Origin: Panax quinquefolius
Lineage: Eukaryota > Streptophyta > Magnoliopsida > Apiales > Araliaceae
Length of the DNA: 64,000 nucleotides
Assembly (NCBI GenBank): GCA_020205615.1
Contig: CM035167.1
Coordinates: 33,148,103 to 33,212,102 of the forward strand
Reading direction: 5' to 3'
Each line of letters starts with the position of its first letter. The stretch's first letter is position 1. Shown piece after piece: positions 1-50,668 of this stretch. Under the pieces are notes generated by a model. That model was not told the origin of the DNA, did not search any database, and saw nothing but the letters and a program-made list of their open reading frames with translations. A program made the position numbers and the translations under genes.

Positions 1-1
1 T

Positions 2-3000
2 CAGGAGAAATTAGACTTTGAGTTATCTGTGGAAACTCCGTTGGGAGAAACCTTCATTACATCCACTGTTTATAAGTCTTGTTTGGTTCAAATCGGTACC
101 CTTACATTACCTGTCGATCTTATTTCATTGAAAATACTTGAATTTGATGTGATTCTAGGGATTGATTGGTTAACTACTCATCATTCAAAAATTGATTATT
201 TTCATAAGGTTGTTAGCTTTCATATTCATAACCAACCTATTATGCGAATTCAAGCAACCAAACCATTAAAATCAATCACTCATTGTCTCTCTCCATAAAG
301 CTATTCGTTTATTGAAAAAGCTGGATGTCAAGCTTTCTTAGCTCATGTCACGGATGTAAACAAAAATACGTCGATTTTGAATAATATTTCTATTGTTAAT
401 GAATTTCTGACGTATTCCCGAAGAACTTCCCGGCCTACCCCGGGCGTGAAATTGAATTTTGTATCGACCTTGAACCCTAGACAAAACCCATTTCCAAAGC
501 CCCATATCGAATGACTCCTATTGAACTTCAGGAGTTAAAGACTCAACTACAGGAATTGTTAGACATTGGCTTTATTCGTCCTAGTACTTCTGTTTGAGTT
601 GCTCCTGTTCTATTCGTGAAGAAGAAAGATGGGAGTATGTGACTTTGTATTGACTATCGGGAGTTGAATCATGTCACCATCAAAAATAGGTACCCATTGC
701 CACGTATTGATGACCTATTTGACCAGTTACAAGGAGCCAAATTCTTTTCAAAGATTGATCTTCGTTCCGGATATCACCAATGGAAGATTAGAACCGATGA
801 CATTCCAAAGACTGGCTTTCGTAACTCCTATGACGGGCATTATGAATTCCTAGTCATGTCCTTTGGATTGACTAATGCCCCTGCTGCCTTCATGGATATG
901 ATGAACCGAGTATTCAAGGAATATTTGGATCACTTTTTGGTCGTCATTCCAAAAGCCGTGAAGATCATGAGCAACACTTGAGGCTGATACTCCAAAAGCT
1001 TCGTGAATATAAGCTTTATGCCAAGTTGAAGAAATACGAGTTCCGGCTTGAGGAAGTAGCATTCCTTGGGCACGTGGTATCAAGTCATGGAATATCTGTT
1101 GACCTAGCAAAGATTGAAGCTATTCAAATTTGGGAGCAACCTAAATCAGTGACCGAAGTACGTAGCTTTCTAGGCTTAGCTGGTTATTATCGGAGATTCG
1201 TAGAAGGGGTTTCTCGAATCGCTACTCCACTAACTCAGCTGACTCAGATAGATACAAAGTTCGGTTGGAGCAAGGAATGTGAGAAGAGTTTTCAAGAACT
1301 CAAGAGGAGACTCATTTCAGCACCTGTTCTGATAATACCATCTGGTTCAGAGGGATTTGTCATCTACAATGATGCTTCGGGCAAAGGGTTAGGATGTGTT
1401 CTCATGCAACATGGGAAAGTCATAGCCTGTGCCTCACGACAACTCAAAGAATATGAGAGGATTTATCCTACTCATGATCTAGAGTTGGCAGCTGTTGTCT
1501 TAGTACTAAATATTTGGAGGCATTACTTGTATGGGGAGAAAGTGGAGATCTTTACGGATCATAAAAGCCTCAAATATTTCTTCACTCAAAAGGAACTCAA
1601 CATGCGACAACGACGTTGACTTGAACTGTTTAAAGATTATGATCATACCATCCAATACCATCCTGGAAAAGTGAATGTGGTAGCTGACGGATTGAGTAGA
1701 AAATCATATGCGGGTACGAGTGCAATATTGACAACGCAAAGGCCCATTTTGTGTGACTTGCAAAGGATGGAAATAGAGTTAAAGACTCTAGGGACCCATG
1801 TGATGATGGCGAATATAAGAGTAGAACCGACTTTAATTGATAAAGTTAAAGCTGCTCAAGCTACAGACCTGGAACTGATGCATATAAGGAAGAAAATGAA
1901 AGAAGGTGCTATGCCGGAAGCAAGAATCGGTGAAGAAGGAATACTTTGAGGCAACTCCAGACTTTGTGTTCCTAACGACCCTGATTTAAAGTATAAAATC
2001 ATGATGGAGGCGCATAACACACCATTTTCAATCCATCCCGGGAGTACCAAAATGTATCATGATATTCGTCATACATTTTGGTGGAGCAATATGAAGAAAG
2101 AGATAGCGCTGTTTATCTCAAGGTGTCTAACGTGTCAACGAGTCAAGGCGAAGCATCAAGTAACAAAAGGTCCATTACAACCACTTGAAATTCTAGAATG
2201 GAAGTGGGAGCACATTACCATGGATTTCGTTACCGGTCTTCCCAAAGTTTCTCAAGGCATAGATGCGATTTGGGTCATTGTTGATAGATTGACCAAGTCT
2301 GCTCATTTCTTACCGATACGAGAAACTTATACACTTGAACGTCTTGCTCGTATGTATATAAACGAGGTTGTAAGATTTCATGGTATGCCAGTATCCATAG
2401 TTTCTGATCGAGACCCAAGATTCACTTCAAGATTCTGGGTTAGTTTGCAAAAAGCTATGGGCACGGATTTACGATTTAGCTCGGCATATCATCCTCAGAT
2501 GGACGGGCAGTCGGAGAGGACGATTCAAACTCTTGAAGATCTATTAAGACTCTGTGTCCTTGATTTCAAGGGAAGTTGGGACAAGTTCTTATCATTGGTG
2601 GAGTTTTCCTACAACAACAGTTATCAAGCAAGTATTGCATGGCTCCATTCAAGCGTTGTATGGAAGAAAGTGTCATTCTGCGCAAAGATCTTTGGGATGA
2701 GGTGGGTGAGGCAACGTTGTTGGGACCGGAGTTGGTACGTATGACTACTTTAAAAAGATTCAAACGATCCGACAATGTATAAAAACCTCACAAGATCGAC
2801 AAAAGAGTTATGCTGATCTTCATCGAAAGGACGTGGAATTCGATATAGGAGATCATGTGTTGTTATGTGTTGCTCCATGGAAAGGAGTTACGAGATTTGG
2901 AAAGGGAAGAAAGCTCAATCCTCAATTCATCGGCCAATTCTTAATCCTTGATTGAGTAGGAACTGTGGCCTATAGACTCGCTTTACCGCCAAGTATGTCT

Positions 3001-3303
3001 CGTGTTCATAACGTTTTTCACATATCCATGTTACGTAAATATGTGGAAGACCCTAACCACATTATTAAGTTAGAACCGGGCAAAATAGCGGAAGATTTGA
3101 CGTATGAAGAGGTTCCTGTTCAAATCTTGGATAAGAAGGAACATATTCTACGCTCCAAGGTTATACCTCAAGTCAAAGTTTTGTGGAGAAAGCACGATGT
3201 TGAGGAGATGACTTGGGAGTTAGAATCTGAAATGAAATCAAGGTATCCTTACCTCTTTAATATACCAGGTACGTACCCTAATTTCGAGGGAAAAATTTCA
3301 TAA
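2..3303 (+). pseudogene. pol: Broken pol polyprotein of A (PR-RT-RNaseH-IN-chromodomain)
   Basis: The protein would copy element RNA to DNA and integrate it. Seen in order: retropepsin C-terminal part (2-298, with VILGIDWL), RT (511-981, frame shifting to 978-1330; [21 protein letters not shown]), RNase H (about 1330-1700, with [10 protein letters not shown]), integrase (about 1930-2950: zinc finger ending CLTCQRVK, catalytic block with MDFVTGLP, SDRDPRF and [11 protein letters not shown]), and a GPF/chromodomain tail (2965-3303). Breaks: stops at 296, 595, 638 and 1617, a stop near 2953, several frameshifts, and a small deletion near 948 that removes the F-I-D-D catalytic box of RT, as comparison with D shows. 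It cannot be functional. Closest relative in the window is D. Confidence 0.93.
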
Positions 3304-3314
3304 GAAGGGGAGAT
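3302..3314 (+). other. Polypurine tract of A
   Basis: A purine run (aagaaggggaga) lies directly before the TG that starts the 3' LTR and just after the pol stop codon. This is the expected position of the plus-strand primer of a Ty3/gypsy element. Confidence 0.85.
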
Positions 3315-4122
3315 TGTAAAACCCCAACTTTTTGAATAAAGATGAATTTTCTATAAATATTATTTTTGAATATTATGGAGTGAAATTGATATAATGTTAT
3401 AGTTGTGGGTAATATTTATAAATTTTGCAAAGTACGCAAGTTGTTATATAATATTTGATTGGTCGAGGAATATTCGCTTTAACAGGAATATTCGTGACAT
3501 GCAAGACAATCATTGGTGGACCCTAATAGAACGGAATTATTGTCGATTGAAAAAATGACAAAAATACTTTTATGAAAATAATGGCGGAAGTTTTACCGTT
3601 AATCTGTTGAAACACCCGGTGTTAAAAAATACATATAATATGCGTGGTTGCATAAGAGCACACTGTATTGATTATTGATGCTTACGTGATAAGTCACTCA
3701 GCTTTTGTTGGTATTATTAATGTAATAATACATAAAATCTTTTATATAAAATGTAATACTTTTATAAAGTTATTCTATAAATAGAATATATTATATTCTA
3801 TTATGCATAGTCGTATAGTGTCTCGTGATAGTGTTTTGCATAGTAAAATCTTTTTATATAAAACAAAATACTTTTATAAAGTTATCTGCTTTATTAGACA
3901 ATAATTAGAATATATTATATTTTATTATGCATAGTGTTTGCATAAGGCACGTATATAAGGTGTTTGCATAGTAAAATCTTTTATAAAGTTATTCGTTTTA
4001 TTAGATTATAAATAGAATATATTATATTTTATTTAAAAGATTTTGCTTTAAATATGGACCGTTAGATTAAAGTAAATCAATCTGGACCGTTCATAAGTTA
4101 GTTACTATGCAGTCCATTTTTC

Positions 4123-4130
4123 TATAAATA
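4123..4130 (+). promoter_or_regulatory. TATA box of LTR A
   Basis: TATAAATA, followed about 60 bp later by a GAGAGAAA-rich stretch, is the usual plant LTR core-promoter layout. The same octamer stands at equivalent places in the A', D, F and C LTRs. Transcription from it would start near 4155 (inferred). Confidence 0.6.
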
Positions 4131-4319
4131 GAAGCTCATTCCTTCATAATTTTCTTACGAATTCACTGAAACTTTAGAGAGAAAAACTATAGAGAGAAAG
4201 AAGAAAAGTGTTCAACTACTTCACTACTTATATATCCAGTACTCTTCTTCTTAAGGTAGGGAATATTATTTGTTGTACTCATAAGGGGTATTCTTTCTTT
4301 CTTACTCATGAAGAGAACT

Positions 4320-4745
4320 TCTGTTATTCCATTCTTTATTATTCTGTTGGAATAACCTGTATACGCGGGATACCCTATACTTGGTAAAATTCTTCTGTTA
4401 TTTAATTCTTTATTATTCTATTGGAATATCCTGTCTCATGCATGCGCTTTACGGACCGATTTCCGCCTTTATTATTATTCGCTGGAATATCCTCGTCTGT
4501 GTGTTTTTTACGTCGGACCGGTTCCGTCTTTATTGGTATTCTCGTTAGAATAACTCTGCGCTATCTGCAATCCGCATGCATGATGATTTCGTTATTATTC
4601 CATTATTTATTATTCTTTGGAATATCCGCTTGCAGGTGATTTTCACCGACTTCGGTTCCGTTAATTATTATTCGCTGGAATAACTCGTCTATGCGCGGCA
4701 ATCTGCATGCATGGTGATTTCTTTTGTTATTCCATTCGTTATTAT
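4320..4745 (+). repeat. GAATA/TATTC imperfect repeat block in LTR A
   Basis: At least six imperfect units combine TTATTATTC with GGAATAAC or GGAATATCC, many forming short inverted repeats (ATTATTCGCTGGAATAAC). Two units also carry a CTGCATGCATG stretch. It lies just downstream of the inferred transcription start. A' and D have GAATA-rich repeats in the same part of the LTR, but with different unit sequence and length. Confidence 0.7.
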
Positions 4746-5771
4746 ACTCAATTGGTTAAAGTTTTGACTTCTATACTCCATGAAATTAGTGGAATATTCT
4801 TGATATTTGCGCTTCATCCAGTATCTTTTCATGGAAATATTCTTCTGAGCATTCTTGAATTTTACTCTACAAAGCAGTATCATGTTGACAATCTGGACGT
4901 TATTAGTTCCTGGATAAATTAATTCTTTAACTTTTTTTATTAAATTCTTATATCATTGTCATCATCCTCATGTTTATATTTTGTTGAAAGTCATCTGTGG
5001 CCGGTAGTGCATGGATGGATTTGGTATGATTATGACTAGGGATTATTCGGTGTAATCATGACCGTAATGTTAGAAATGATGTGGTCAAAGTCCTCATTGG
5101 CCCGTAGTGCATTGATGGATAGTTGTTGGCATGATCATGACCATTAATGAATACACAAATATTCTTGGCCCGTAGTGCATGGATAATTGTGGTCGTGATA
5201 CTAAAGAATATCCTCGGTCAGTAGTCAGGGGGTGATTCGATGATGTGGATTATTTATTGTCGAGTCTCAAATGATAAAAGTCATGAAAAACCTTTTAAAT
5301 CATAGAAGATTGTAGATTTTATTCTCTACTTGACTCTTCTAATGGATTGCTTGTTTCAAGCTTCTGATTAAACTTGATGTTTGTTATATTGTATCGGTTT
5401 AACATCTGTTTTAAGGCTAATGATAATTTATTCGCATTATCTTAGTCATAATATTTGTTCTTGGGCTAGTTGAGCTCACCCTTTTCTTTCACTTTGTTCT
5501 CTTGTGAAATGAGAATGTAGCTAGGATTTAGCCTGGGGAATGGAGTGATGGTCCGAATGATAGTATTAGCTAGTAGTCCTCACTATTCTGTTAAATAGTG
5601 TGACAATAAATGTAATGAGGACTCATTCTGAGAGTGAATATTACCTAGAAGATAGTATTTGTATTTAAACTCACAGCTCTCTTATTGTATAATTAAGATT
5701 GTATTTATGTTCTGTACCATGTATTTGGCGACTCAGAATAGGTAATGTATACCTATTTTGGGGGCGTCACA

Positions 5772-6506
5772 AATTATATGTATTTCAATTCCCAAATGAA
5801 CAACTCTGAATAAATGCAAATTAGAAACTACTTTCTAATTTCATTTAACCTTGGCCAGGGATTCCTGGGTTGTCATTTATTGAATCACATAAGACATTTC
5901 TCTTCTTTTACTAGAAGTGGTAGATTCTATATTGATCATTCATTATCTCCATATATAACTTATTACACCCAAGCATACCATTTGGCATACCCTAAGGGTC
6001 TTAAGGAATAAGTCAAAATGTAATTCATTACACATAAGATACTATGATGATCTCAAGTCTAATAATCATTTGTACTACTATCACTATAGGAATTCCTATT
6101 GATAAGCAAGTAAAACTCCATTAGGTATTCCTTAGCGAGTCACGTTCAGTGAACTTATTCTCCAATAAGCACACAAATGATCATGAGATCAATCATTCTC
6201 ATCTAATGAGCAAGAAACATATATATCAATCTATCCGAATTCATTAATCCCTTTTTTAGTAATCCATTGATTGAGAACATTTTTGTTTTAAGCTATCTAA
6301 GAATTTAGATCTCATTAGCATGATCTCATCATGATTCTAAAAGCATTGCTTAAAATTATGGGTTTATCACATATTATTAAAACAACACCATGTAGATAAT
6401 TAAATACCTTTAATAAATAATTCTTTTATTAATAAATAAATAAGATTGATTAAAAAGTATATGCTTTATCATCATACATGATTGGCTTGTATGCATACTA
6501 CTTTCA
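5772..6506 (-). repeat. Partial copia LTR K (C family), minus strand
   Basis: The reverse complement of this stretch closely matches the first ~770 bp of the C LTR (50669 onward and 57986 onward), including the start TGAAAGTAGTATGC. It ends on the left exactly at the A insertion; the rest of K must lie beyond A, outside the window. K may be a solo LTR or the 5' LTR of a longer element. Its start at 6506 abuts Athila-type sequence, so K inserted into J. Confidence 0.85.
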
Positions 6507-16379: not shown

Positions 16380-18973
16380 TATAAACGACGTGAGTTTGAG
16401 TTTCTGTGTTCATGAGTTTTATAATTTTTGAGAATTTTTAATTTATGTAATTTCCGTTATACAATTGAATTATATGATGTTATGTTTCTCAGAGCTAGTG
16501 TTAGATAAAGATTGTATTTTAAATTAAGGCTGCAAGGTAAGAACTTTGTTTTACAGTGAAAAACATGTATGAACGTATGTTTGCAAAATAACAAAATTGG
16601 TATGTGATTATGCAAATTGTGAACTAATACGCGAATTGAACTTTGTATATGTTAGTTGGACTATATGTTGGTATGCTAGTATTACAAAAGTATTAAGTTG
16701 GTTATAATTCTGGATTTACGTTCACTGTATTTTAGATATCCACAATGGAGTTTTAAAATTTTGGTTTCAAAGAAAAACAGTGTTTTTAAAGAATTAGTTC
16801 TCTGATATTGTTGTTTAGTTGTGTAAAATTTGTACACGAATGCTTCATAACTTTTATGTGTAATTTACGTGAAGTTATACATGTTAATGGGTGTTAATAA
16901 AAAGTTAGGCAATGACTTTGTTCGCTTTTTTCTGGTTTGGTTCTGTGAGTTTCGGCGCCCCAGAGCCAAAATCCACGCCCAACACATCAAGTCTCACGCC
17001 TCAAATACCAAAAATGGGCCAGTTCATCGCCCCAACACTCTCTAATTGCTACCCCGTATTGCTGAATTCGCACCCCCGCACCATCGTCTCGCGCCCAAAT
17101 ATTTGAAAAAGTGGTTTGGGTCGGACAGTTTTGACCTCCTGTAGTAAAATGGCCATAACGTTTTCATACAAAATTCGATTAAGGTGATTCAAATGATTCG
17201 GAAAGAGGCCGAATAGGCCTATAACTTTTATTCTTTAAGTTTTTCAATTTGAAATCGTTATGAAGGGTCAAAATGGCCATCTTTAGGACTGTTGTGTATT
17301 TGGAGCTAATCGGAGGGCGTTAGGATGCGCGAATGCAAGTGCAATCCTTTGAGTATTAGTATAACGTAATGATAACATGTTGGACATGTAATAGGATGTT
17401 ATATCAAGTTGTTAATGTGTATGTGGTGTAATGACATGATCACTTAAGTAGTTATAAAAAAAAACTAAAAAGTAATGTTCATGAAAAGATGCAATTTTAT
17501 TTAAACTTACACTTAGTTAGTAGCTATACTAAAAGTAAGAAAGCAACTCATGAAGGTAATGTTAGTGTAACTAATGTGTATTGTCAATACATATGGTATG
17601 TGTAGGACTTGGGGTGAACATGAGTAGTGATTGTTTAACCTACGCATGAGGCAAGTTCCATAACCTTTGCTACTTTATTATTCAGCAAGGTTACTTTTCA
17701 CTGTTATGTTATACTTATGCAAATTCTCTATTTCTTATCTCTTGTTTAACGATTTATTGTCATGCAAGTTCATTAACTCTACCTTGTTAATAGTTGACCA
17801 AGTTTTTCTAAATCATAAATCGTCATTATGCAAATTTCATAATTCTATACTTTATTGAGTAAAGTATTTTCATTAAACAACTTGATTGTATCTAGTTATT
17901 CATGATGATACAAGCTTTCCATCTCCACACTTTCGTCGAGATAGGTATTATGGTTATGCAAGTTTTCTTAACTCTAAACTTGTTATATCAGCAAGCTAGT
18001 ACCTTTATTCTGTTGAATCAGTTTATCGTTCAAATTATTGTTGTTATGCATGTTTGATATTAAATTCTAAGTTGTAACCTTAGCTTAATATTTTTCAAAG
18101 CAAGGTATGATAGATTATTCAATTGTTATTCTATTAGATTATTCCTAAAGCATGAACTTAGAACGAAATGTTTATTCAGTTATGATCATTCAATAACATA
18201 GTGTTATTATCTTTTATTCAACTAATCCTTTGTTGATGTCCGTTAAACTCCAAATTACTTTGAAGTGTATCCAAACCAAACGGACTTTGGTGCGGACTTG
18301 TACTCTAAATACTGAGACGAACAACCCTATTTTTAGGGGTTGCACCTAGTTTTGTACTTTGTGCTGAAATGTTTGTATACAATACATGTACGAAGGATTG
18401 ATCCCCCTAAGTACCTTTGAGTCCTTGCAATGTATATATATTATTATAGTTAAAGTTGAAAGATTACTTATAACTGTGGACAGGGTTCGTGGTCATTAGA
18501 CCCTCAGTGAATGTTATGATTTATGGAATGTTAATAGAACATATTGTTCAGTTCTATTCAGCCTAGTATTTGGCAAGTGATGTAAAGGTTAAGGTTTTAT
18601 TTATTGTTATTCCAATTGAGCCTTGTTTGCTCACTCTTGCCTATAAAATTCTTACAGCTAAAGCTGAAAAGGGTGACGTACCTAGCACCAGTAAGAGAAA
18701 GGGAAAGATGAACAAGTACTGAAGACTTGTAATAGTTTAATAGTTTTATTATTAGACTTTGGTTTAAAGATTGTAATGAAGTTATTTTATTTTTCTGCAT
18801 GAATGATTGTTTGTAAAGGTTAGATAACCTGGGAGATTTTATTTTATGTAATTCCTGTATGGGCAGGTTTATTATTCAATTTTATTTATGATTGGGTAGT
18901 TATAAATGAATGTTTTGATTACGTGAACAACAAATCTTGAGGTAATGAAGTACCGGGATTTGGGGGTGTCACA
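15654..18973 (+). repeat. 5' LTR of element E (3320 bp)
   Basis: Starts TGTAACATTCC inside Athila gag and ends GGGGGTGTCACA before a tRNA-Met-type primer site. It shares organisation with the B LTR: an AT-rich start, a GC-rich segment (16953-17100), 'ccaaaccaaacggactttgg' (18271), a GATCCCCCTAAGTACC block, and GCTCACTCTTGC at 18629. It contains an (AT)n(GT)n microsatellite. A sister LTR start is seen at 63932. The LTR at the other end of this composite (26728-29865) is a different sequence. Confidence 0.88.
16315..16376 (+). repeat. (AT)n(GT)n microsatellite
   Basis: A run of TA dinucleotides passes into GT dinucleotides within the E LTR. Likely variable in length; no function inferred. Confidence 0.95.
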
Positions 18974-18976
18974 AGT

Positions 18977-18988
18977 TGGTATCAAAGC
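18977..18988 (+). other. Primer-binding site of E (initiator tRNA-Met)
   Basis: TGGTATCAAAGC, three bases after the LTR end, matches the plant initiator-Met primer site TGGTATCAGAGC with one change. B has the identical sequence at 36587. Confidence 0.9.
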
Positions 18989-19177
18989 TTTAGGTTATGA
19001 ACCTTAGGTGGGGGGAAAGCCTTAGGAAATAACCTTTGAAATGATAGTGGAGATAACTCTTATCGAGTTTTAAGGAAGAAGTAACAAAACACTTATGTGT
19101 TTATGTGTTTATAATTTATGTGCTCGTGAGTGTCGAGTAGAATGATTAATAATTAAAACTTTAAAAACTTTGTTGTC

Positions 19178-19179
19178 AG
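19178..19179 (+). other. Possible 3' splice site before ORF1 of E
   Basis: TTTGTTGTCAG|G directly precedes the ORF1 ATG (19181). The matching place in B reads TTTTGTTGTTAG|G. A pyrimidine/T-rich tract plus YAG one base before a start codon, conserved in two elements, suggests a splice acceptor. Not proven. Confidence 0.45.
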
Positions 19180-19180
19180 G

Positions 19181-19927
19181 ATGACTAATGTCGGAGAATC
19201 CAGTCAGGATAGAGAGGAAGGACCTCAGATGCCTATAGAGGAGGAGCCTCGCGATATTCAAGTTGTTTAGGAACAACTACTGCCACGGGAGTCAGCCCCG
19301 TTGGTCACAGTGGTTGAAGATGAAGATGATGATGTGGAGACGGATGAGGAGGATCCCGTGGAGTTGCCACAGGAGGATGAGGATGACGAGGACGAGGAGG
19401 AAGAGACTCCACTAAACTCGATGGCTGCTCGTATGTATGATGAAGTCTACGACCGTAACGTGGAACTTCAGGACACAGTTGAGGAGTTGTAGGAGATAGT
19501 AGCTAAACAACAGACTGCAATGACACAGAAGGACGACGACATCCAGGATCGAGATGAATGTCTAACTAATGTTGAAGAGAAGCTGATGCAGACTGAAGGA
19601 GAGAATGAATAATTGATTGAGATGGTCGTGGAACTAAAGAACAAGCTAAAGGAAGAAGCTACCAAGAGGGCTAGAGCGGAAGACAAATACGAGGAAGATT
19701 ATCAACGAAATGGAGTAGCAGTAAGAGACGCACAAGCTAAGAGGATGAAGGTGGAAGAGATGGATAAAGTATTCAATACCGTGATCAATCGAGCTCAAGA
19801 TCGGGTCATGGGTTATCCAATTCAGTTCGAGACTCTTCCATCATACGTGTTAGATCGCCGAATAATGTTCTGAGTTATGGTAGAAGAGCGTCGAAAGGCT
19901 ACGGAGTATCTTAATAGATCATCGTAG
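19181..19927 (+). pseudogene. ORF1 of E: extra acidic coiled-coil protein upstream of gag
   Basis: A single frame of 248 codons plus stop starts MTNVGESSQ and lies between the primer site and gag, where standard Tekay elements have no gene. It is interrupted by in-frame stops at 19268, 19490, 19610 and 19871, without frameshift. Layout: short N-terminus with EEEPRDIQVV, a very acidic stretch (DEDDEDEEEE), the block MAARMYDEVYDRNVELQD, a long charged heptad-like region likely to form a coiled coil, and a C-terminal block VMGYPIQFETLPSYVLDRR. The B copy (36803-37543) matches all these parts in order and has the same length. Function unknown; not recognised as any gag, env or protease. Conservation of its frame between two diverged elements argues that it was a real protein. 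Confidence 0.8.
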
Positions 19928-20228
19928 GAAATGTGACTGTAATGCACGTAATAAGTATTAAATAATGTGTAAATCCCTATTGTTAAGTAACCATTGGATA
20001 TGATAATAATGATGTTTTCCTGTAACTTTTGTAGTTCAGGAAAGGAATGTAAATAACAGTGATGCTATTATTTTTATGTTTTTCGAAGTAATGATGAATA
20101 AATAAAAGTTATTATTTTATTCAAAGTGTTATGTGTTATGTGGTTATTTCTTTTATGGAGGCAAGTTAATTAGAAAATACTTAAAGATGTTGAGTAATAG
20201 TCTAATAGATGTTTTGTTTTAACAGAAA
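19928..20228 (+). other. Spacer between ORF1 and gag of E, possible intron end
   Basis: About 300 bp, AT-rich, no gene. It ends TTTTGTTTTAACAG|AAA directly before the gag ATG, a good plant 3' splice-site consensus (AG at 20224-20225). The B spacer (37544-37834) has the same length and also ends in a T-rich tract plus TAG, three bases before the gag ATG. Confidence 0.5.
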
Positions 20229-21055
20229 ATGCCTCCCAAACGTGAACCACCCCGACAGAGAACCAATGAGAGAACTAACAATAAAGATGTTGAAGATAAT
20301 CCCGTCCAACAACTAGTGACAATACTAACAAGAGCGTTGCATAATCAACCTCAAAACCAAGGCTCAACGTTTAAGGAGTTTAAGGCGGTTGGACCACCTG
20401 AATTCCGTGGATCCATGAATCCGGTCGAGGCACAGACCTGGATTATGGAAATAGAAAAAGTATTTGAAGTCGCTAGGGTAGGGGATGAACAGAAGACTGT
20501 TTTTGCAACATTCATGTTGAAAGTAGAATCTAGTTATTGGTGCCAAGCCAATAAAACCCGAGAAGGACCAGGAGTGATGACCTGGGATAGGTTCAAGGAG
20601 TTATTCTTCGAGACCTATTTCCCAGAAAGTTCGAAGAATCAGTTAGAGGTTCAGTTTTTGGAACTAAAGCAGGGAACGATGACGATATCTGATTATGCAG
20701 CGAAATTCAACGAGTTGGCAATGTTTGCGCCATATCAGGTCAGTACGGATGAACGAAAGGCGAAGAGATTTGAACAGGGACTGAAGCCCTGGTCAGACAT
20801 GAGGGTTTCCTGCTCCAATTGAAGACATTTGCAATGTGGTCGAGGAGAAGGCAATACTACCAAGGTGGAGGCGAGGCAGTGACAAAATTCAACCAAGAAC
20901 AAAAGAAGAAGAAGAATGGGGGGAGGGGGGAAGTGAAGAATGGTAGCGGAGGCAATGGAAATGGCAACAACAATAACAACAACAACTTGAAGAGGAAGTG
21001 GAACGGAAACGGGGGTACTAGAAACCAGCAGGGTAACCAACAATTTAGAAAAGGA
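20229..21055 (+). pseudogene. gag: gag of E, joined to integrase tail of F
   Basis: Starts MPPKREPPRQRTNERTN and shows the chromovirus gag core: FKAVGPPEFRGSMNPVEAQT, WDRFKELFFETYFP, ELKQGTMTISDYAAKFNELA, then RRFEQGLKPW-like sequence. A frameshift occurs near 20800. The basic, asparagine-rich linker (GNGNNNNNNNLKRKW) that normally precedes the zinc knuckle follows, but at about 21055 the sequence changes abruptly to the integrase C-terminal part (HFGKKGKLSPRFIGP). The zinc knuckle, protease, RT, RNase H and integrase core are therefore deleted. Confidence 0.88.
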
Positions 21056-22040: not shown

Positions 22041-24475
22041 TTTTAATTCATGAAAAATCATAACAAATAATATTAATGTATAAGAAAATATTTTAAGTTA
22101 TTTTCAAAGTGACTTTTAATATTTTGTGATGAAATTCATTAATTAATTAATATTAATTATAATTATTTTATTTAATAAATATATTAAATAAATTATGGAA
22201 AAATAGAATTAATGATTTAAAAATCATATAAAAATGATTTAAGTGTTATAAAAATATTTTAAGTTATAAAATGTAACTTTTGATATTTTGTCATGAAAAT
22301 ATTAATATTTTAATATTAAAAGCAATAATCGGATAATGGATTTAATTCGGTTTAAAAATCATATAAATATGATTTTAAGGTATTAAAAAACTTTGACATA
22401 TTATAAATATAGTATAATATTAAGTGATGATTTTCATTAATATTTGATAATAAATAAATATTAATGATAAAGGAATATTGTAGTATTTAATTCATTTAAA
22501 TACAATTATAATGATTGAAAATAAACGATAAATAGTAATAATTACTTAAAAATTATTACGAGACTTTGAAAAATATTTTGACTGCTTAGAAAATTGTCTT
22601 AGTTAATTGTTAAGTGTTAGTCAAGAGTTTAATTGAACATAGACTCGATAAAAGTCCCACTGTAATCACGGGATGTTAGAATTGTGGTTTCAAGTTCAAC
22701 TCGGATCGCAATAGTTTGACTTGATCACAAAGTCTTATGTGTGTTATATATAATCGATAGGGTTATGTGTTATATGTGTTTATGTTATTCTATATCTATA
22801 TATATTATAGTATTATATTGTGATGATATTATTCTAATATTGGAGATCTATATTACTAATATTAGGTCTTCGGATAAAGCGTTATAAATTGCGTTACAGA
22901 ATCAACCAGTTGTGCAAGTTTGTTTTTATTTAACTCTATTAAGAGTGTTTCATTCAGATAAGCTTATGGTTAATCATTGTTGGTTGCCATGAATTATACT
23001 ATGTACATATTGCATGTATAAGTCAGGTAGGATAGGCTGATCACCTTCATTACCAGTTGGTTCAGATATATTTGTTCATGTATAATACTTGTTCAGTTAT
23101 AAATTTGTTCCTCATAGTTCACAATTATATTGTTGAATTATAGCCAGCCAATTATTCAAATCATTTCAATCATGATATATCATTATATTGTTGAACTTAA
23201 ACTTGCTGGGCAATTCTTATGCTCACCCTTGCTATATCATGATAAAACATTGCAGATTAAGGCGAAAAAATAATTTTAATTCATGAAAAATAATATTAAT
23301 GTATAAGAAAATATTTTAATTTATTTTCTATGACTTTAAATATTTTGTGATGAAATTCATTAATTAATTAATATTAATGGTAATTATTTTATTTAATAAA
23401 TATATTAAATAAATTATGGAAAAATAGAATTAATGATTTAAAAATCATATAAAAATGATTTAAGTGTTATAAAAATATTTTAAGTTATAAAATGTAACTT
23501 TTGATATTTTGTCATGAAAATATTATTATTTTAATATTAAAAGCAATAATCGATAATGGATTTAACGGTTTAAAATCATATAAATATGATTTTAAGGTAT
23601 TAAAATACTTTGATATATTATAAATATATTATAATATTAAGTGATGATTTTCATTAATATTTGATAATAAATAAATATTAATGAAAAAGGAATATTGTAG
23701 TATTTAATTCATTTAAATACAATTATAATGATTGAAAATAAATGATAAATAGTAATAATTACTTAAAATTATTACGAGACTTTGAAAAATATTTTGACTG
23801 CTAAGAAAATTGTCTAAGTTAATTATTAAGTGTTAGTCAGAGTTTAATTGAACTTAGACTCGATAAAAGTTCGACTAGACCGTCGGGATGTTAGAATTAT
23901 GTCGGGTTCAACTCGAACGCAATAATAGTCGACTTGATCTTAGTCTTATATGTAATGTTATAGGCGATAGGGTTATGTGTTATATGTGTTTAGGTTATTC
24001 TATATCTATATATATTATAGTATTATATTGTGATGATATTATTCTAATATTGGAGATCTATATTACTAATATTAGGTCTTCGGATAAAGCGTTATAAATT
24101 GCGTTGTGGTAATCAACGGTTCAGGCAAGTTTGTTTTTACTTAACTTTACTAAGAGTGTTTCATTCAGATAAGCTTATGGTTAATCATTGCTGGTTTCCA
24201 TGAATTGTACTCTGTACATATTGCATGTATAAGTTAGGTATGAAAGGCTGATCACCTTCATTACCAGTTGGTTCAGATATATTTGTTCATGTATAATACT
24301 TGTTCAATCATAAATTTGTTTCGGCTAGTTCACAATTATATTGCTGAATTATAGCCAGCCAATTATTCAAATCATTTCAATCATGATATATCATTATATT
24401 ATTGAACTTAAACTTGCTGGGCAATTCTTATGCTCACCCTTGCTATATCATGATAAAACATTGCATATTAAGGCG
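22041..24475 (+). repeat. Two-copy direct tandem duplication (~1.2 kb period)
   Basis: The block from about 22041 to 23272 is repeated from about 23273 to 24475. Anchor words such as aattcatgaaaaat (22046 and 23278) and attaaggcga (23256 and 24467) give offsets of 1232 and 1211 bp. The copies differ by scattered substitutions and small indels, so the duplication is not very recent. Confidence 0.9.
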
Positions 24476-24742
24476 AATACGTCAGATACAAGGAAAGGTC
24501 CAAGACAGTTCCAGCTTTAGTAGACGCGTGCAGTTAGATTTGTATTGTATGATATTAATGTTGTTATATGTTAGAAAAATTATGAATTATATATAAGTAA
24601 AGGTTACTCGACCTTGGAAAATAGTGTGTAATGTAATGTATAAACAATTTATGTTTATATCTTTCGCAAATAGTAATAGTTGTATAGAATGATCGAACCG
24701 GATCCGAGGTGAATTAGGACCTAGATTCGGGGACCTCATAGT

Positions 24743-29865: not shown

Positions 29866-32522
29866 GGTTAATGATCCATTGGAAACTACATTATTGGGAG
29901 ATGAAGATTTGGATGATCTGGAGTTTGTAGATTATTTGCATATGCTGGATTCTTTGCCACGAGTTAGCAGATTCAAAGCACCATTTGAACAATTACACAC
30001 AGAGGAAAGAGCCACAACAAGGATGAAACCTTCATTGGAGGAGCCACCTACACTTGAGCTTAAGCCACTTCCTAAACACCCCAGGTATGCATATTTAGGA
30101 AATTCTAATACTTTACCTGTTATTATTGCTTCTGCACTTAACGAATTGCAGGAAAATATGTTATTGAGTGTGCTTAGAGAATACAAATCATCTATAGGAT
30201 GGACAATTGCATATATCAAGGGAATAAGTCCGTCCTTCCACATGCATAAAATTCTTATGGAAGAGGATGCAAAGCCAAAAGTGGAACAACAGAGAAGGCT
30301 CAATCCAATCATGAAAGAAATAGTGAAGAAAGAAATTCTAAAGTGGTTGGATGCGGGAATCATCTACCCAATTTCAGACAGTATATGGGTCAGTCCGGTT
30401 CAATGTGTGCCGAAAAAGGGATAAATGACTGTAATACATAATGACGATAATGAATTAATTCCTACGAGGACAGTGATCAGTTGGAGGGTTTGCATGGACT
30501 ATAGGAAGTTGAATAAAGCAACCTGCAAGGACCACTTCCCTCTAACTTTTATCGATTAGATGTTGGACAGGTTGGTGGGACAAAAATTTTACTGCCTACT
30601 AGATGGGTATTCGGCGTACAATCAAATAGTCATTGCTCTTGAAGATAAAGAGAAAACCACTTTCATGTGCCCATACGACACTTTTGCATTCAGAAGAATG
30701 TCGCTTGGCTTGTGTAATGCACCTGCAACCTTTCAACGGTGTATGATGGCCATTTTCTCGGACACGATGGAAAAGAATGTGGAAGTCTTCATGGATGACT
30801 TCTTTGTCTATGGAGATAATTTTGAAACTTGTTTAGAGAATTTGGTGATGGTTTTAAAGCGATGCGTGGGGATAAATTTGGTACTAAACTGGGAGAAGTG
30901 CAATTTCATAGTTGAAGAAGGAATAATTTTGGGGCACAAGGTCTTAGCGAAGGGATTAGAGGTTGATAGAGTGAAGTTAGAAACAATTGATAATCTTCCA
31001 CCGCCGACTACAATGAAGGAAATTCACAGCTTTCTGGGACATGTAGGATTTTACCGAAGGTTCATTAAAGATTTCTCTAAGATTGGAAAACCATTGTGCA
31101 GTCTCTTAGAGAAGGACACAATTTTCAAGTTTGATGAGGATTGTAAGTTAGCATTTGAGGTATTGAAGAAAAAGTTGACTACAGCTCCAGTTATCGTCAC
31201 ACCAGATTGGAATATGCCTTTTGAGTTAATGTGCAATGTAAGCGACTACGCAGTAGGGGCTATTTTGGGTCAACGCCGAGAAAAGATATTCCACGCCATA
31301 TAGTATGCAAGTAAGACATTTACGGAGACTCAAATAAATTACACAACTACAGAAAAGGAGTTACTTGCAGTAGTATATGCCTTTGACAAATTCCGGGCAT
31401 ATTTGATTGAGACAAAGGTGGTGGTTTACTCGGATCACTCGGCAATTTGGTATTTATTCTCGAAGAAGGATGCTAAGCCATGACTTATCAGATGGATACT
31501 CCTCCTACAGGAATTTGATTTGGAGTAAAAAGATAGAAAGGGGACGGAGAATCAAGTTGTAGACCATCTTTCAAGGTTAGAAAATCTGGACAAAGACGGG
31601 GCAGATAAGTGTTTAATCAACGAGTCATTTCTGGATGAGCAGCTGTTTGGAGTCAATGCAGAATTTCCATGTTATGCAGATTTTGCCAACTATTTGGTGA
31701 GTAACGTCCTTCCAACTGATAGTACACGGAAACAAAAGAAGAAGTTCTTACATGTCGTCAACTTGTACATATGGGATGAGTCGTATCTATTCAAACAATA
31801 TGCAGATAAAGTGATTAGTTGATGTGTTCCATACAGTGAAGTAAATAATATACTGCATGAGTGCCATTCGTCTGCATACGGGGGACATTATGGAAGTGAG
31901 AGAACAATGACAAAAGTGCTTCAAGTAGGGTTCTATTGGCTTACAATATTTAAAGATGCCCACTAGTTTGTTAAAAGTTGTGACAAATGTCAAAGGGTGG
32001 GTAACATATCGAAGAGGAATGAGATGCCACTACAAACTATCTTGGAAATTGAAATATTTGAGGTATAGGGCATGGATTTTATGGGGCCATTTCCTTCATC
32101 GTTTAATAATTAGTACATCTTGCTTGCAATTAAATATGTATCAAAATGGGTTGAAGCTATAACACTCCCCACAAACGATGCCAAAGTGGTTCTTAAATTC
32201 TTGCACAAGAATATTTTTACAAGATTTGGCATGCCAAGAGCTATTATAAGTGATGAGGGTAGTCACTTCTGCAACAGATCGTTTACAGATCTTTTGGCAA
32301 AATATGGGGTCAACCATAAGGTGGCTACAACATATCACCCCCTAACAAGTGGGTAAGCTGAGGTTTCAAACAGGGAGGTGAAGAAAATATTAGAAAAGGT
32401 AGTAAACCCAAATAGAAAGGACTAGTCTCTCAAATTGGATGATGCATTATGTGCTTATAGGACAGCTTACAAGATGCCAATTGGGATGTCACTATATCAT
32501 TTGGTTTACGGGAAAACATGTC
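29866..32522 (+). pseudogene. pol: pol of Athila H (RT-RNaseH-IN), cut by A'
   Basis: One reading frame runs through the whole stretch with eleven in-frame stops (30422, 30557, 31301, 31481, 31526, 31820, 31964, 32066, 32111, 32354, 32423) and no frameshift. Seen: the pre-RT linker ELKPLPKHPRYAYLG, RT with VCMDYRKLNKAT, FAFRRMSLGLCNAPATFQR and an intact FMDD box (EVFMDDFFVYG), tether YRRFIKDFSKI, RNase H (TEKELLAVVYAFDKF, VVYSDHSAIWYL), integrase zinc finger (H..., CDKCQRVG), and catalytic core with GMDFMGPFP and YVSKWVEA. It ends at LVYGKTC where the A' LTR begins. Gag C-terminus and protease are missing at its left edge. Confidence 0.93.
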
Positions 32523-36583: not shown

Positions 36584-36586
36584 AGT

Positions 36587-36598
36587 TGGTATCAAAGC
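36587..36598 (+). other. Primer-binding site of B (initiator tRNA-Met)
   Basis: TGGTATCAAAGC, three bases after the LTR end; identical to E. Confidence 0.9.
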
Positions 36599-36799
36599 TA
36601 TAGGTTATGAACCTTAGGTGGGGGAAAAACTTTGGGTAGTAGCCTTATAGAAAGAACATAGTGATGGAAAACTCTTATTGAGTTCTAGGAAATGAATTTT
36701 TGTAATTCATTAAAGATAGTAAAAGACTTTATGTGCTTATGTGTTAAATTATGTGCTCACTAGTACGACTTAGTAACTAAAACTCGAAATTTTGTTGTT

Positions 36800-36801
36800 A
36801 G
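36800..36801 (+). other. Possible 3' splice site before ORF1 of B
   Basis: TTTTGTTGTTAG|G immediately precedes ATG 36803. Same arrangement as in E at 19178. Confidence 0.45.
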
Positions 36802-36802
36802 G

Positions 36803-37543
36803 ATGTCTGACGTTGGAGGAACTAGTAGAGCAGGGGAGGAGTAACCCCGAGTACCTACAGTACCTACAGAGGAGGATCCTAGGGACATTCATGTCGTTAG
36901 GGAACAATTGGTACAGAGGGAGTTATCTCCATTGATCACCGTTGTTGGTCAGGAGCATGAACCTGAGACAGATCCTGAGGAGGATCCTGAGGAGGAATTT
37001 GACGAGGAAGAGAAAGAAGAGGAGTTTCCACAGCATTCCATCGATGCTGAGATGTACGACACATTATACGACCATAATATGGAGTTACGAGATGAGGTGC
37101 AGGATCTGACTAAGCGAGCTATTATTCAGCAGATTACTCTCGAGAAGAAGGAGAGGGAGATTTCGACTCTTCACTCATGACTGGGAAATGTAGAATGGGA
37201 TTTGGTCCATGAGAAGGGTCAAACCGAAGATAAAACCGGAGAGATAGAAAAGTTGAAGAAGGATCTGAAAGAGAGTTCAGAGAGGCTTGCCATAGCAGAG
37301 GAGGGCTGGGTAAGAGAGTCACGTCATGCTGATCTCGCAGAAGAGGATGGTCATGCAAAGAAGGCAAAGCTTGGAGAGACATACTCTACACTTAATCATG
37401 CAATGGATGAGGCCCATGATCGAGTTTTGAGGTACCCCATCCAGTTTGAAGGACTTCCATCGTACATGCTGGATAGCAGGACGATGTCTCGTATCATGGA
37501 AGAGGAGTGTGGCAAGGCTATTCAGCACCTTGACAGGCAGTGA
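36803..37543 (+). pseudogene. ORF1 of B: extra acidic coiled-coil protein upstream of gag
   Basis: A single frame of 246 codons plus stop starts MSDVGGTSRAGEE, with in-frame stops only at 36842 and 37178. Matching E ORF1: EEDPRDIHVVREQL, a run of acidic residues (DPEEDPEEEFDEEEKEEE), MYDTLYDHNMELRDEVQDL, a long Lys/Glu-rich heptad-like segment (about residues 105-190), and C-terminal HDRVLRYPIQFEGLPSYMLD. No signal peptide, membrane segment or zinc knuckle. Candidate roles would be structural or regulatory within the particle or nucleus; the sequence does not decide. The D element has no such ORF: its leader is only about 175 bp. Confidence 0.8.
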
Positions 37544-37834
37544 TATAATCTATTTAATTATGTGAAAGACTTAGTTAATTTTTATATGTAAATTCCGATA
37601 TATTTATGAACGAAGGAATATTTTAATATTTAAATCCTGTGGATTCTTTATGTCGGAATGGTGGATGAAAATAGCAGTTATGCTATCGTTTGATGTAAAA
37701 CTTTTAGTTTAAATTAAATATATTAAGTTGTTTGAGATGATGTGTTAAATGATTATATTAAATTATTGAGTTAAGTCTTAACAATTTAGAGAATTTAATA
37801 AAGATTTAATAAGCATATATCTTTTTAATAGAAT
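37544..37834 (+). other. Spacer between ORF1 and gag of B
   Basis: About 290 bp of AT-rich sequence without a gene. It ends ATCTTTTTAATAG|AAT before the gag ATG at 37835, a possible splice acceptor at the same distance from ATG as in E. Confidence 0.45.
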
Positions 37835-38518
37835 ATGCCACCACGAAGAAGACAACAACGTCAACCAGCTCAGGAAGAGTCTACCAATAATAATAATAAA
37901 GCCAATGCTAATCCTGTTCAACAATTGGTTAACTTGCTAGCTGGAGCAATGGATAATCAACCTCAAGCTCCACCAAATACTATGTTTAAAGATTTCAAGG
38001 CGGTGGGACCGCCAGAATTTAAAGGTTCCATGAACCCGATCGAGGCTTAAACATGGGTTATGGAAATGGAGAAGGTTTTCGACGTTGCTAGGGTTAGAGA
38101 AGACCAGAAGACCGCTTTTGCAACATTTATGCTGAAGTCTGAAGTTAGCTATTGGTGGCAAGCAAACAAAGTTCGAGGAGGTGAAGGTGTAATTACTTGG
38201 GAGAGATTTAAAGAAATGTCTTTTGAGATGTACTTCCCAACCAGCTCACAGAACCAGATGGAGGTTTAATTTCTAGAATTGAAGCAGGGAAATATGAGCG
38301 TACCTGATTATGCGGCTAGATTCAACGAATTAGCAAGGTTTGCCCCGTATCAAGTACACACGGACGAGAGAAAAGCCAGAAGATTCGAACAAGGACTAAA
38401 GCCTTGGGTATACAGTAAAGTATCAATGTTTCAGATAAACACATTTGTCGGAGTATTGGAAAAGGCCATCCTCGCTGAAGGTGGAAGCGATGCGGTGACC
38501 AAGTATAATCAAGAGTAG
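37835..38518 (+). pseudogene. gag: gag of B
   Basis: One frame starting MPPRRRQQRQPAQEE with in-frame stops at 38048, 38267 and 38516 and no frameshift. Contains FKDFKAVGPPEFKGSMNP, VMEMEKVFDVARV, ELKQGNMSVPDYAARFNEL and ARRFEQGLKPW, the chromovirus gag core. At the first two stops E has CAG in frame (20433 and 20652), so these look like C-to-T losses of glutamine codons. The basic tail continues past 38518 in broken frames to a zinc-knuckle fragment (EACSNC) near 38660. Confidence 0.9.
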
Positions 38519-38649: not shown

Positions 38650-41600
38650 GAAGATCGAAGCGTGCTCAAACTGCAAGTCAACAAGGTTGTGTTTTATGGT
38701 AGCAAGTCGCCTAGACAAGCGAGTTGTCTGACGATGATGCAGGCCAGGAAGTTATTAAGACAAGGCTGTGTAGGATACTTAGCTTACATAGTCGACAGTC
38801 GAAAAGAGAATCCCAAGGTAGAAGAAATACCGATTGTGAGGGACTTCGTCGACGTATTTCCAGACGATTTGCCAGGACTTCCACCAGATAGATAGGTAGA
38901 TTTCGTGATAAATTTGGCGCCCAGAACTGCTCCAATATCGAAACACCATACCGAATGGCACCAGTAGAGATGAAAGAACTAATGGTACAACTACAAGGAT
39001 TGTTGGATAAGAAGTACATTCAACCGAGCGTATCACCGTGGGGAGCGCTTGTGTTATTTGTGAAAAAGAAGGATGGATCGATGCAGCTCTGCATTGACTA
39101 CAGAGAACTAAATAAGGTCACGATTAAGAACAGATATCCATTACCTAGGATCGATGACCTGTTTGATCAATTGAAGGGAGCGAAATACATTTCCAAGATA
39201 GACTTGAGAAGCAGTTATCATCAACTGAAGGTAAGGCCAGAGGATGTACCGAAGACAGCATTCAGAACGCGATATGGTCACTACAAATTTTTAGTTATGT
39301 CGTTTGGTCTTACGAATGCTCCTGCAGCATTAATTGGACTAATGAATTGTGTGTTCAAGCCGTTTTTGGACAAGTTTGTAGTGGTATTTATAGACAAAAT
39401 TTTGGTATATTCGAAAACCAAAGAAGAACACAAAGAGCATTTGAGATTAACGTCGGAGGTATTGAGAAGGGAGAAGTTGTATGCTAAGTTTTTGAAATGC
39501 GAATTTTGGATCGAGCGAGTACAATTTCTTGGTCACGTGATCGATACGAACGAAATTTCGATAGATCCATCAAAAGTCAAAGCCGTGATCAACTGGGATC
39601 AGCCAAGGACGCCATCGGAAGTACAAAGTTTTCTTGGATTGACAGGGTATTATAGAAGATTCATTTAAGATTTTTCCAAGATCGCAACTCCGTTAACGAA
39701 TTTAGCTCGAAAAGCTGTGAAATTTGTTTGGACGGATAAGTGTGAGGAATGTTTTCAAAAATTGAAGAAGAGGTTGAGTACGGCACCCGTGTTATCTCAT
39801 CCGGTTGATACAGGATATTTTGTTGTTTATAGTGATGCGTCGCATAAAATACTTGGCTGTGTGCTGATGCAAAACGGCAAAGTCATTGCGTATGCATCAT
39901 GACAATTGAAGGATTACGAGAAGGGATATCCGACCCACGACTTGGAGTTAGCTGCTGTTATTTTTTCTTCGAAAATTTGAAGGCACTATCTCTACGGGGA
40001 GAAGTGTGAAATATATACGGACCACAAGAGTCTGAAATATATTTTTACACAGAAGGATTTGAATATGCGTCAAAGAAGATGGTTGGAATTAATTAAGGAT
40101 TACGACTATAAGATTTTATACCATCCGGGTAAAGCAAATGTGGTTGCCGACGCCTTAAGTAGAAAGGGTCGTGAGAGATTGATGATGTTGACTGCTCAGG
40201 AGGAGCTAATTTCATAAATGGAGAAACTAGAGTTGGAAGTGAAGTATCCTATGGAGATTTATGAGAAGTTATTTCAGATGCAATCTGGTACAACTCTACT
40301 AGATAAAGTAAAGGAGGCTCAACTTTAGGACGAAGAATGTAAAAAGGTGACAAAGAAGATATCTGAAAGAACTGAACCGAGATTTAAGATGGATAAGGAA
40401 GGAATACTGAGATTTGAGAGTAGAATTTGGGTACCGCCAGTACAAGAGATTAAGGAAGACATTTTGAGTGAGGCTCATAGTTCATAATATTCGATTCACC
40501 CTGGTAGTACCAAGATGTACCAAGATCTTCTAAAAACATTTCTGGTGGCCGAATTTGAAACGTGATGTTGCAGAATGTGTTGCCAAGTGTCTGACCTGTC
40601 AGAAAGTAAAAGTAGAACATCAGAGACCAAGTGGATTGCTACAACTGTTGGAGATCCCAGAATGGAAATGGGAACATATTACAATGGACTTCGTGGTTGG
40701 CCTTCCGACGACTCAGAAAGGCTACGACGCAGTATGGGTTATCGTTGACTGACTGACGAAATCCGCACACTTCCTTCCGATAAAAATCAGATTCAACTTA
40801 GATCAGTTGGCGAGGTATACGTAAAAGAGATTGTTTCGAGGCACAGAGTTCTGGTGTTAATTATTTCTGATAGAGATCCGCGCTTCACATCGAATTTCTG
40901 GAAACGTCTTCAGGAATGCATGGGTACGCAATTGCGAATGAGTACAACATACTACCCTCAAATAGACGGACAGAGCGAAAGAACGATTCAGACATTAGAA
41001 GATATTCTAAGAGCCTGTGTGATGGACTTTAAAGGAAATTGGGATGATCACCTACCGTTAATAAAGTTCGGCTACAACAACAGTTACCACGCTAGTATTG
41101 GCATGCCGCCTTATGAAGCGTTATCTGACGTAAAGTGCGAACTCCGCTTCTTTGGGATGAAGTTGGTGAAAGGCAATTGCTAGGGCCAGAATTGGTACAG
41201 CAGACAACAGAAATAGTCAAAGTTATCCGAGCACGACAGGTAGTAGCTCAAGATAGACAGAAGAAATACGCTGATCCACATCATAAAAATATCGAATTTG
41301 AATCAGGTAGTTATGTTTTCTTGAAGGTCTCTCCCTGGAAGGGGAAGATAAGGTTCGGAAAGAAAGGGAAATTAAGCCCAAGATTTATTGGACCCTTTGA
41401 AGTATTGCAAAGAATCGGAGAAGTCGCGTACGAGGTAGCCTTACCTCCATCACTCGAGAATGTCCACAACGTCTTCCATGTTTAGGTGTTACGACCCTAC
41501 AAACCCGATTACAAGCATGTAATTGAATACGAACCCCTGCATTTTGAAAAAGACTTATCTTACGAAGAAATTCCTGTTCAAATTATCGACAGAAAAGAAC

Positions 41601-41722
41601 AAGTTCTCATAAATAAAGTAATACCTTCTGTTAAGGTAATTTGGAGGAACCACAACGCTGAAGAAGCTACGTGGGAACTCGAAGAGAATATGATGAAGAA
41701 CTACCCTCATTTATTTACTTAA
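38650..41722 (+). pseudogene. pol: pol of B with protease deleted (RT-RNaseH-IN-chromodomain)
   Basis: At about 38665 gag zinc-knuckle sequence runs straight into the last part of the protease region (VNKVVFYGSKSPRQASCL), so the retropepsin core is deleted. RT: 38955-39668 ([30 protein letters not shown]), with the F-I-D-D box changed to F-I-D-K, removing a catalytic aspartate. RNase H: 39717-40200 ([26 protein letters not shown]). Integrase: 40500-41180 ([37 protein letters not shown]). GPF and chromodomain: 41350-41722 (VIWRNHNAEEATWELEE). Stops at 39666, 39900 and 40750 and several frameshifts. Non-functional. Confidence 0.93.
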
Positions 41723-41820: not shown

Positions 41821-41835
41821 TTAAGGGGGGAAAGA
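41821..41835 (+). other. Polypurine tract of B
   Basis: ttaaggggggaaaga directly before the TG of the 3' LTR; the same type of tract precedes LTR F. Confidence 0.85.
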
Positions 41836-46063: not shown

Positions 46064-46073
46064 ACCTCCCTCC

Positions 46074-49000: not shown

Positions 49001-49500
49001 TTATGATTAGATATATGATAGTGATTGATTTTAATGGTTTAGTTGCTTGAATTAAATATAACGGGTTGGTTAGGAATATGAAAACTAACAACCTTACGAA
49101 AACAATCAATTTTGGCATGATGAGTAGTTAACCAATCAATCCCTAAAATCACATCAAAAGCAAGTATCTTTAAAGAGATAAGGTCAACGGTAAGGTGATG
49201 GTGCCAACTTGAATCAAACAAGATTTATAAAAAGTGGATGTGATGAAAGTTTCTCCTAACGGAGTTTCCACAGATAGGTCAAAGTCTAATTTCTCCGGAG
49301 TCAAGTTTAAACGTTGAGCACATGCAGGAGAGATAAATGAATGGGTAACACCCAGATCAAGTAAGGTATAAACTTCGCAAGAATTTATAAATAGCTTACC
49401 CGTGATCACCTCGTTGGGTTTCTCGCATTTTGACCAATCACAACAACGCTTCTTCCCGAATCGTTGACTTTGACTTTTTGGGATGATCTTTTGAGTCACC
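46074..49500 (-). pseudogene. pol: pol of D (PR-RT-RNaseH-IN-chromodomain), many small frameshifts
   Basis: Minus strand. Protease about 49040-49480 (VDLISLKILAFDVILGIDWL, nearly identical to A; an upstream active-site-like DLGVTHSFI). RT about 48000-48860, with the F-I-D-D catalytic box readable near 48355-48375. RNase H about 47600-47980. Integrase about 46340-47490 ([39 protein letters not shown]). Chromodomain about 46074-46330, ending NFEDEIS before TAA. Frames change many times, usually by 1-2 nt near CG or CNG words. Since the LTRs are young, some of these may be sequence errors rather than real mutations. Confidence 0.9.
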
Positions 49501-50620: not shown

Positions 50621-50668
50621 TCTCAAATACTGTCATAAAACAAGGGTTAATTAAGGAAATCAATATAT

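Follow-up and report, generated by a model that had tools for sequence, protein, structure and literature searches.

To our knowledge, no accessory gene of a plant LTR retrotransposon has a proven function. In Ogre/Tat elements, such a gene, ORF1, is located upstream of gag. A survey of plant LTR retrotransposons classes Ogre/Tat with the non-chromoviruses, raises the question of whether eORFs have any function and, in the accessible text of its chromovirus section, mentions no eORF (PMC6317226; this and the following papers are cited from the portions of their text that are openly available). Sense ORFs before gag have been published in Tekay-lineage elements of grasses (PMC3485330) and of sunflower (PMC11728184). 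In grasses, ORF0 was described in Retrosat2, RIRE3 and RIRE8 of rice, with homologues in maize, sorghum and Brachypodium, and was reported absent outside this plant group; pairwise identity of the proteins is as low as 7.6% (PMC3485330). In sunflower, 500 of the 523 elements of Tekay group 2 were reported to carry a 5' aORF and groups 1 and 3 to be without it, and both the sunflower and the grass 5' aORF proteins are predicted to be nuclear and to contain extended disordered regions; some also have a long helix at the C-terminus (PMC11728184). An earlier, sequence-only reading of the present locus had assumed that Tekay/Del chromoviruses normally have only gag-pol and had linked extra upstream ORFs with the Ogre/Tat lineage; these publications support neither assumption.

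We analysed a stretch of 64,000 nucleotides of Panax quinquefolius DNA (the window), in which two elements, E and B, carry homologous ORF1 frames located between primer site and gag.

18964-18973, plus strand: LTR end of E, GGGTGTCACA (same motif in B at 36574)
18975-19180, plus strand: leader of E, from LTR to ORF1, with six upstream ATGs
18976-18988, plus strand: primer binding site of E, TTGGTATCAAAGC
19181-19927, plus strand: ORF1 of E, 248 codons and a stop, with four internal stops and no frameshift
19928-20228, plus strand: spacer between ORF1 and gag of E, 301 nt with 16 ATGs and a splice-acceptor-like TTTTAACAG at its end, before gag
20229-20822, plus strand: gag of E (Retrotrans_gag, 8.4e-18), open over 197 codons
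34093-36583, plus strand: 5' LTR of B, TGTGAC...GTCACA
36585-36802, plus strand: leader of B, from LTR to ORF1, with six upstream ATGs
36586-36598, plus strand: primer binding site of B
36803-37543, plus strand: ORF1 of B, 246 codons and a stop, with two internal stops and no frameshift
37544-37834, plus strand: spacer between ORF1 and gag of B, 291 nt with 11 ATGs
37835-38518, plus strand: gag of B, interrupted by internal stops; its identity to E gag is 70.9% across 172 positions
38892-39668, plus strand: reverse transcriptase of B (RVT_1, 3e-30)
41486-41719, plus strand: chromodomain at the C-terminal end of the B integrase (Chromo, 4.1e-5; 23.8 bits, short of the Pfam cut-off of 25.1)
41823-41835: purine tract of B, directly before the 3' LTR
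41836-43372, plus strand: 3' LTR of B, first part
62680-63803, plus strand: 3' LTR of B, second part, on the far side of a nested element

The order of B is complete, running from LTR through ORF1, gag, reverse transcriptase (RT), integrase, chromodomain and purine tract to the 3' LTR. We take the primer sites of E and B to be of the initiator-Met tRNA type. Gag-pol order, primer site, purine tract and LTRs of the host element are those expected of Tekay/Del, and we file it as Tekay/Del-type, an assignment made by the chromodomain and the literature only. The position of ORF1 is like that in Ogre/Tat, but the Panax host element differs from these non-chromoviruses in the chromodomain of B. The LTR pair of B has diverged by K 0.074 and 0.044 for the two 3' LTR parts, which at 1.3e-8 substitutions per site per year would place the insertion about 1.7-2.9 million years ago.

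The ~247-codon frame of the sequence-only reading was confirmed as a shared frame, its length being corrected to the exact counts listed above. The blocks it had named were found in the translations of E and B (MYDEVYDRNVELQD / MYDTLYDHNMELRD and YPIQFETLPSYVLD / YPIQFEGLPSYMLD), as were the acidic N-terminal half and the long charged, heptad-like middle. Each copy aligns with one intact relative from end to end and without frameshift, at 91.5% over 248/248 for E and 91.5% over 246/246 for B. The five alternative frames of the same DNA contain 9-25 stops in E and 6-23 in B. Between E and B, pS was 0.82 and pN 0.33 in the true frame, whereas shifting the frame gave pS/pN of 0.44/0.42 in one case and 0.32/0.45 in the other; conservation of the frame is far beyond chance.

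Like grass ORF0, the Panax ORF1 is an extra ORF before gag-pol in long-LTR elements, has no function assignable by homology and evolves fast, ORF0 outpacing the gag-pol ORF and ORF1 outpacing gag (PMC3485330). The LTRs measure about 3 kb with TGTCACACCC...GGGCGTGACA ends in grasses (PMC3485330) and 2.5 kb with TGTGAC...GTCACA ends here, and the hosts belong to different plant groups, ORF0 and ORF1 being compared by description only (PMC3485330). With the sunflower 5' aORF, ORF1 shares the sense orientation, the 5' location, the lack of a domain and the absence from sister groups, whereas the sunflower product has 402 aa and 15.9% proline (PMC11728184) and that of Panax ORF1 is acidic, with 240-249 aa and 4-4.5% proline. 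By position, ORF1 fits the eORF-5'F class of the plant LTR survey, yet its 240-249 codons fall just under the minimum of 250 applied there (PMC6317226); members may thus escape surveys that set the minimum length at 250 codons or higher. We found no description of such an ORF in Panax in the open-access literature searched, as far as its accessible text goes. Within a kind of ORF that is already known, ORF1 forms a new sequence family, the grass and sunflower proteins having been compared by description only, and it adds to the Tekay 5' ORFs both a third plant group and a selection test.

The predicted ORF1 product is acidic and about 245 residues long; its long middle is heptad-periodic and its C-terminal block conserved. 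Most copies shown start with M(S/T)(N/D)V, continue with EEPRDIxVV and an acidic stretch, and then have, in this order, the MYD block, the long charged middle and the YPIQFExLPSYxLDRRT block; net charge across the first 90 residues is -27 to -30. In the middle, the strongest hydrophobic period was 3.50 in all four proteins analysed, a strength reached by a fraction of 0 to 0.0085 of 2000 shuffles. A period of 3.50 is characteristic of coiled coils. Before the C-terminal block, a K[KR]x[KR] patch, a candidate nuclear localisation signal, occupies an aligned position in both families, although the pattern is only four residues long, the protein is rich in K/R, and further matches occur elsewhere in E-type proteins and in the database protein P0002.

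Relatives were sought in a genome of 3,565,155,480 bases on 821 contigs with stop-free C-terminal pieces of ORF1 as queries. Loose candidates numbered 18,867 for the B piece and 18,534 for the E piece; the best 150 of each were scored, and these lists, like the best-150 gag lists, are weighted towards sequences closely related to the window copies. Of 94 loci, selected partly by frame length and by similarity of the encoded protein and including repeats of one copy (e.g. L002 and L039, both window E), 29 have a YPIQFE-type block in a frame of 225 codons or more that runs from ATG to stop. After omission of L057, L070 and L075, 26 intact copies of 240-249 codons were used; L055 (249 aa) was excluded by the motif filter, and L086 was retained even though it is out of frame over part of its N-terminal region. 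Hence, intact relatives, whose absence would have spoken against the sequence-only reading, exist elsewhere in the genome. When copies were instead picked by gag, 15 of 16 (picked by eye among the best-150 gag matches, down to the last rank) had ORF1 upstream of gag, the exception being L105, without an ORF1 match. A protein collection yielded relatives on short contigs, four with the B query and three with the E query (18 in total with their alignment); the homologues there have 244-257 aa and the layout of ORF1. Searches of viral contigs and plasmids found no ORF1 relative. Two weak relatives in the protein collection, P0019 (E 0.0022) and P0018, have an EPRDIHVV start and an acidic stretch, P0019 having EEEPRDIHVV in common with ORF1, and may mark further plant groups that carry ORF1.

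ORF1 is under purifying selection between rounds of transposition. The gag-picked set was added because the other copies had been found by protein similarity, and it is free of selection bias on ORF1; with L105 dropped, the 15 copies gave a pooled pN/pS of 0.31 (codon bootstrap 0.25-0.39) for the C-terminal part of ORF1, the part covered, against 0.82 and 1.12 in the shifted frames. Among the intact copies (15 E-type, 11 B-type), median omega was 0.21 within E, 0.23 within B and 0.19 between types, where synonymous sites are near saturation. Pooled pN/pS for the same copies was 0.26 (E), 0.25 (B) and 0.46 (between types), and shifted frames had median ratios of 0.75-1.46. The remaining copies (39 E, 29 B) showed a pooled 0.34 in either family and 0.65-1.09 in shifted frames, and the signal was weaker in the eight DNA-picked copies L001-L008 (0.48 vs 0.58 and 1.12 shifted). 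For gag-picked copies, pN/pS dropped from 0.53/0.66 in the closest pairs (8 each) to 0.23/0.22 in the most distant, a trend to which binning by pS itself contributes by lifting the lowest-bin ratio. Young copies thus have a raised ratio, not the value near 1 that the sequence-only reading had named as evidence against it. For gag of window E and B, pN was 0.19 at pS 0.79, compared with 0.33 at 0.82 for ORF1; ORF1 evolves faster than gag, yet it is clearly constrained.

The window also harbours elements without ORF1, among them one inside the 3' LTR of B:

43373-62679, minus strand: chromovirus-type element nested in B, having a gag and lacking ORF1 (boundaries approximate)
about 50667-59868: younger insertion within the nested element, LTR pair K 0.010

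The LTR pair of the nested element itself has K 0.062, and its gag is a related one (40-43% in short pieces). The primer site of this element is at about 60008, and its gag apparently begins near 50620 on the minus strand; the younger insertion aside, no ORF1 match occurs between the two. Nor did the 751 nt read on the upstream side match ORF1 in any of four sampled relatives. In two of these, primer site and gag ATG are 179 and 184 nt apart; in the other two, either the primer site or the gag ATG was not found. Present in most copies of its own family and in none of the sister group sampled, ORF1 is distributed as a 5' aORF. The sequence-only reading had used another element, D, as its ORF1-less contrast. 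D does lack ORF1, but its RT (30560-31303) is only 35% identical to that of B and its integrase is, as we take it, Athila/Tat-like; D is therefore no fair comparison for E and B, little can be concluded from the absence of ORF1 in it, and the element at 43373-62679 is the better control. Element A, at the left edge of the window (1-6500), has 81.6-81.9% DNA identity to the nested element, is 68% (RT) and 56% (chromodomain) identical to B, and scores 6.5e-4 for Chromo, below the Pfam cut-off, and 7.5e-12 for SH3_Tf2-1. Positions 2650-4627 of L095 match an LTR-like part of A (window 3315-5302) at 90%; since this LTR-like stretch stops shortly before pol, A seems to be without most of gag and is probably an internally deleted copy.

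The top-scoring ORF1-bearing copies are unevenly distributed over the large contigs. Of the 300 ORF1 matches (best 150 per query), one set of 12 large contigs carries 277, the other set of 12 carries 2, and small contigs carry 21; the two sets were defined after viewing the lists, though the B list alone would define them. The best 150 E gag matches were split 132, 6 and 12 in the same order, and the best 150 matches to the ORF1-less gag 40, 96 and 14, on 23 of the 24 large contigs. As the ORF1-less sister family thus occurs on nearly all large contigs, ORF1 is dispensable for such elements in general. PgDel2, a Del family whose FISH signal covers half of the chromosomes of Panax tetraploids (PMC5567358), shows the same half-set pattern as the top-scoring ORF1-bearing copies, a likeness in distribution only; the available text of the PgDel2 paper contains neither 'orf' nor 'open reading' (PMC5567358). 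The top-scoring ORF1 copies probably mark one subgenome of tetraploid Panax, and ORF1-bearing copies might serve as a subgenome marker, although older copies on the other contig set may be missed because only the best 150 were scored. Copies with ORF1 also lie closer to the contig middle than those without (median 0.29-0.32 vs 0.45, p 0.004; only 40 ORF1-less places, positions rounded to Mb). In sunflower, it is the aORF-less Tekay groups that are biased towards the pericentromere, and the aORF group is not (PMC11728184). We rejected a role of ORF1 in keeping insertions clear of the centre, since Panax shows the opposite of the sunflower trend.

How ORF1 and gag might be expressed was considered from the leader and the spacer. 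The offset between the two frames varies (1 in E, 0 in B), and we rejected an ORF1-gag fusion or read-through on this ground. With six ATGs ahead of ORF1 and 11-16 in the spacer, expression by simple scanning is improbable. E and B have a splice-acceptor-like TTTGTTGTYAGGATG in common before the ORF1 ATG, and a rough acceptor-like pattern was present before ORF1 in 24/42 E and 18/29 B leaders and before gag in 33/52 E and 7/37 B spacers. Inspection by eye saw no strong splice donor. Alternative splicing onto the acceptor-like sites before each ATG would be the likeliest, if weakly supported, route.

Taken together, we read ORF1 as a selected accessory gene of one Tekay/Del-type chromovirus lineage whose product would be a coiled-coil nuclear adaptor, with a probability of roughly 0.5 for this reading as a whole. 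Conserved, coding, without a known domain, represented by intact copies and found in one chromovirus lineage, ORF1 bears out the proposal of a lineage-specific accessory gene; that it is a selected protein gene is close to certain. Judging from the heptad-periodic middle, we lean towards a protein that acts as a coiled-coil oligomer. Such oligomers could be imported into the nucleus by way of the K-K/R-x-K/R patch that precedes the C-terminal block, and might connect the element RNA or integration complex to chromatin or export factors, with contacts made through the EEPRDIxVV and YPIQFExLPSY motifs; this adaptor role is tentative, and we rate it at less than even odds.

Two explanations would deprive ORF1 of a function of its own. 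A passenger or regulatory upstream frame with an inert protein might account for the stops in many copies, including both window copies, yet pN/pS is low in the frame and higher off frame, and the conservation of residues speaks against a frame kept only for its length or position; we deem this explanation extremely improbable. An origin of ORF1 as a degraded piece of gag, of pol or of a host gene that was captured is hardly more attractive and very unlikely in our view. It could draw on low-scoring similarities to coiled-coil families (among them an Smc chain, E 0.0035), which we attribute to composition. Against it, a comparison of ORF1 with E gag by hhalign returned a probability of 0.0, disposing of the gag ancestry that the sequence-only reading had allowed might undo its case, and no Pfam family reached its cut-off with ORF1; for a host gene of origin, the search was non-exhaustive, with the best 150 of about 18,500 candidates scored.

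Other explanations grant ORF1 a function and place it elsewhere. ORF1 might counter host silencing and be kept since silencing is the main barrier to spread, as its selection and a seemingly numerous family (about 18,500 loose candidates with either piece) would allow. Plant viral suppressors and the VANC proteins of Vandal transposons provide models. An RNA-silencing role has been proposed for the grass 5' aORFs, whose fold weakly resembles that of a DRBM protein (PMC11728184). However, Pfam found no RNA- or DNA-binding domain in ORF1 and the N-terminal 90 residues are strongly acidic, and we consider this function unlikely. It is doubtful, if somewhat less so, that ORF1 partners Gag or the genomic RNA in particle assembly, RNA export or the choice of what is packaged. 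ORF1 lies directly upstream of gag and occurs together with it in 15 of the 16 sampled copies, and a protein of a C. elegans LTR element is reported to be needed for genomic RNA export and to be able to form nuclear rods (PMC10309623, accessible text). ORF1 is unrelated in sequence to gag, though a partnership remains compatible with this, and the sister family has gag without ORF1.

The 5' ORFs of grass, sunflower and Panax Tekay/Del elements could go back to one ancient, fast-evolving gene for an acidic coiled-coil nuclear protein that was lost in some branches, an idea that we hold to be speculative and rather doubtful; if true, EEPRDIxVV and YPIQFExLPSY would be the anchors that join scattered copies. 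Many copies, intact frames, measured purifying selection, a natural ORF1-less sister family within one genome and top-scoring copies nearly confined to half of the large contigs make ORF1 a good system for testing the function of such genes.

Besides, two features outside ORF1 deserve mention. The first 40 nt from the primer site (18975-19014 in E, 36585-36624 in B) contain a single E/B difference despite saturated synonymous sites. A hairpin just 3' of the primer site was considered and discarded, as its predicted folding was no better than that of shuffled sequences. The same 40 nt contain a short palindrome, AGGTTATGAACCT, which is exact in 35/42 E and 26/29 B copies. Finally, a tandem duplication of ~1.2 kb with 92.9% identity lies at 22055-24477, inside or adjoining E.
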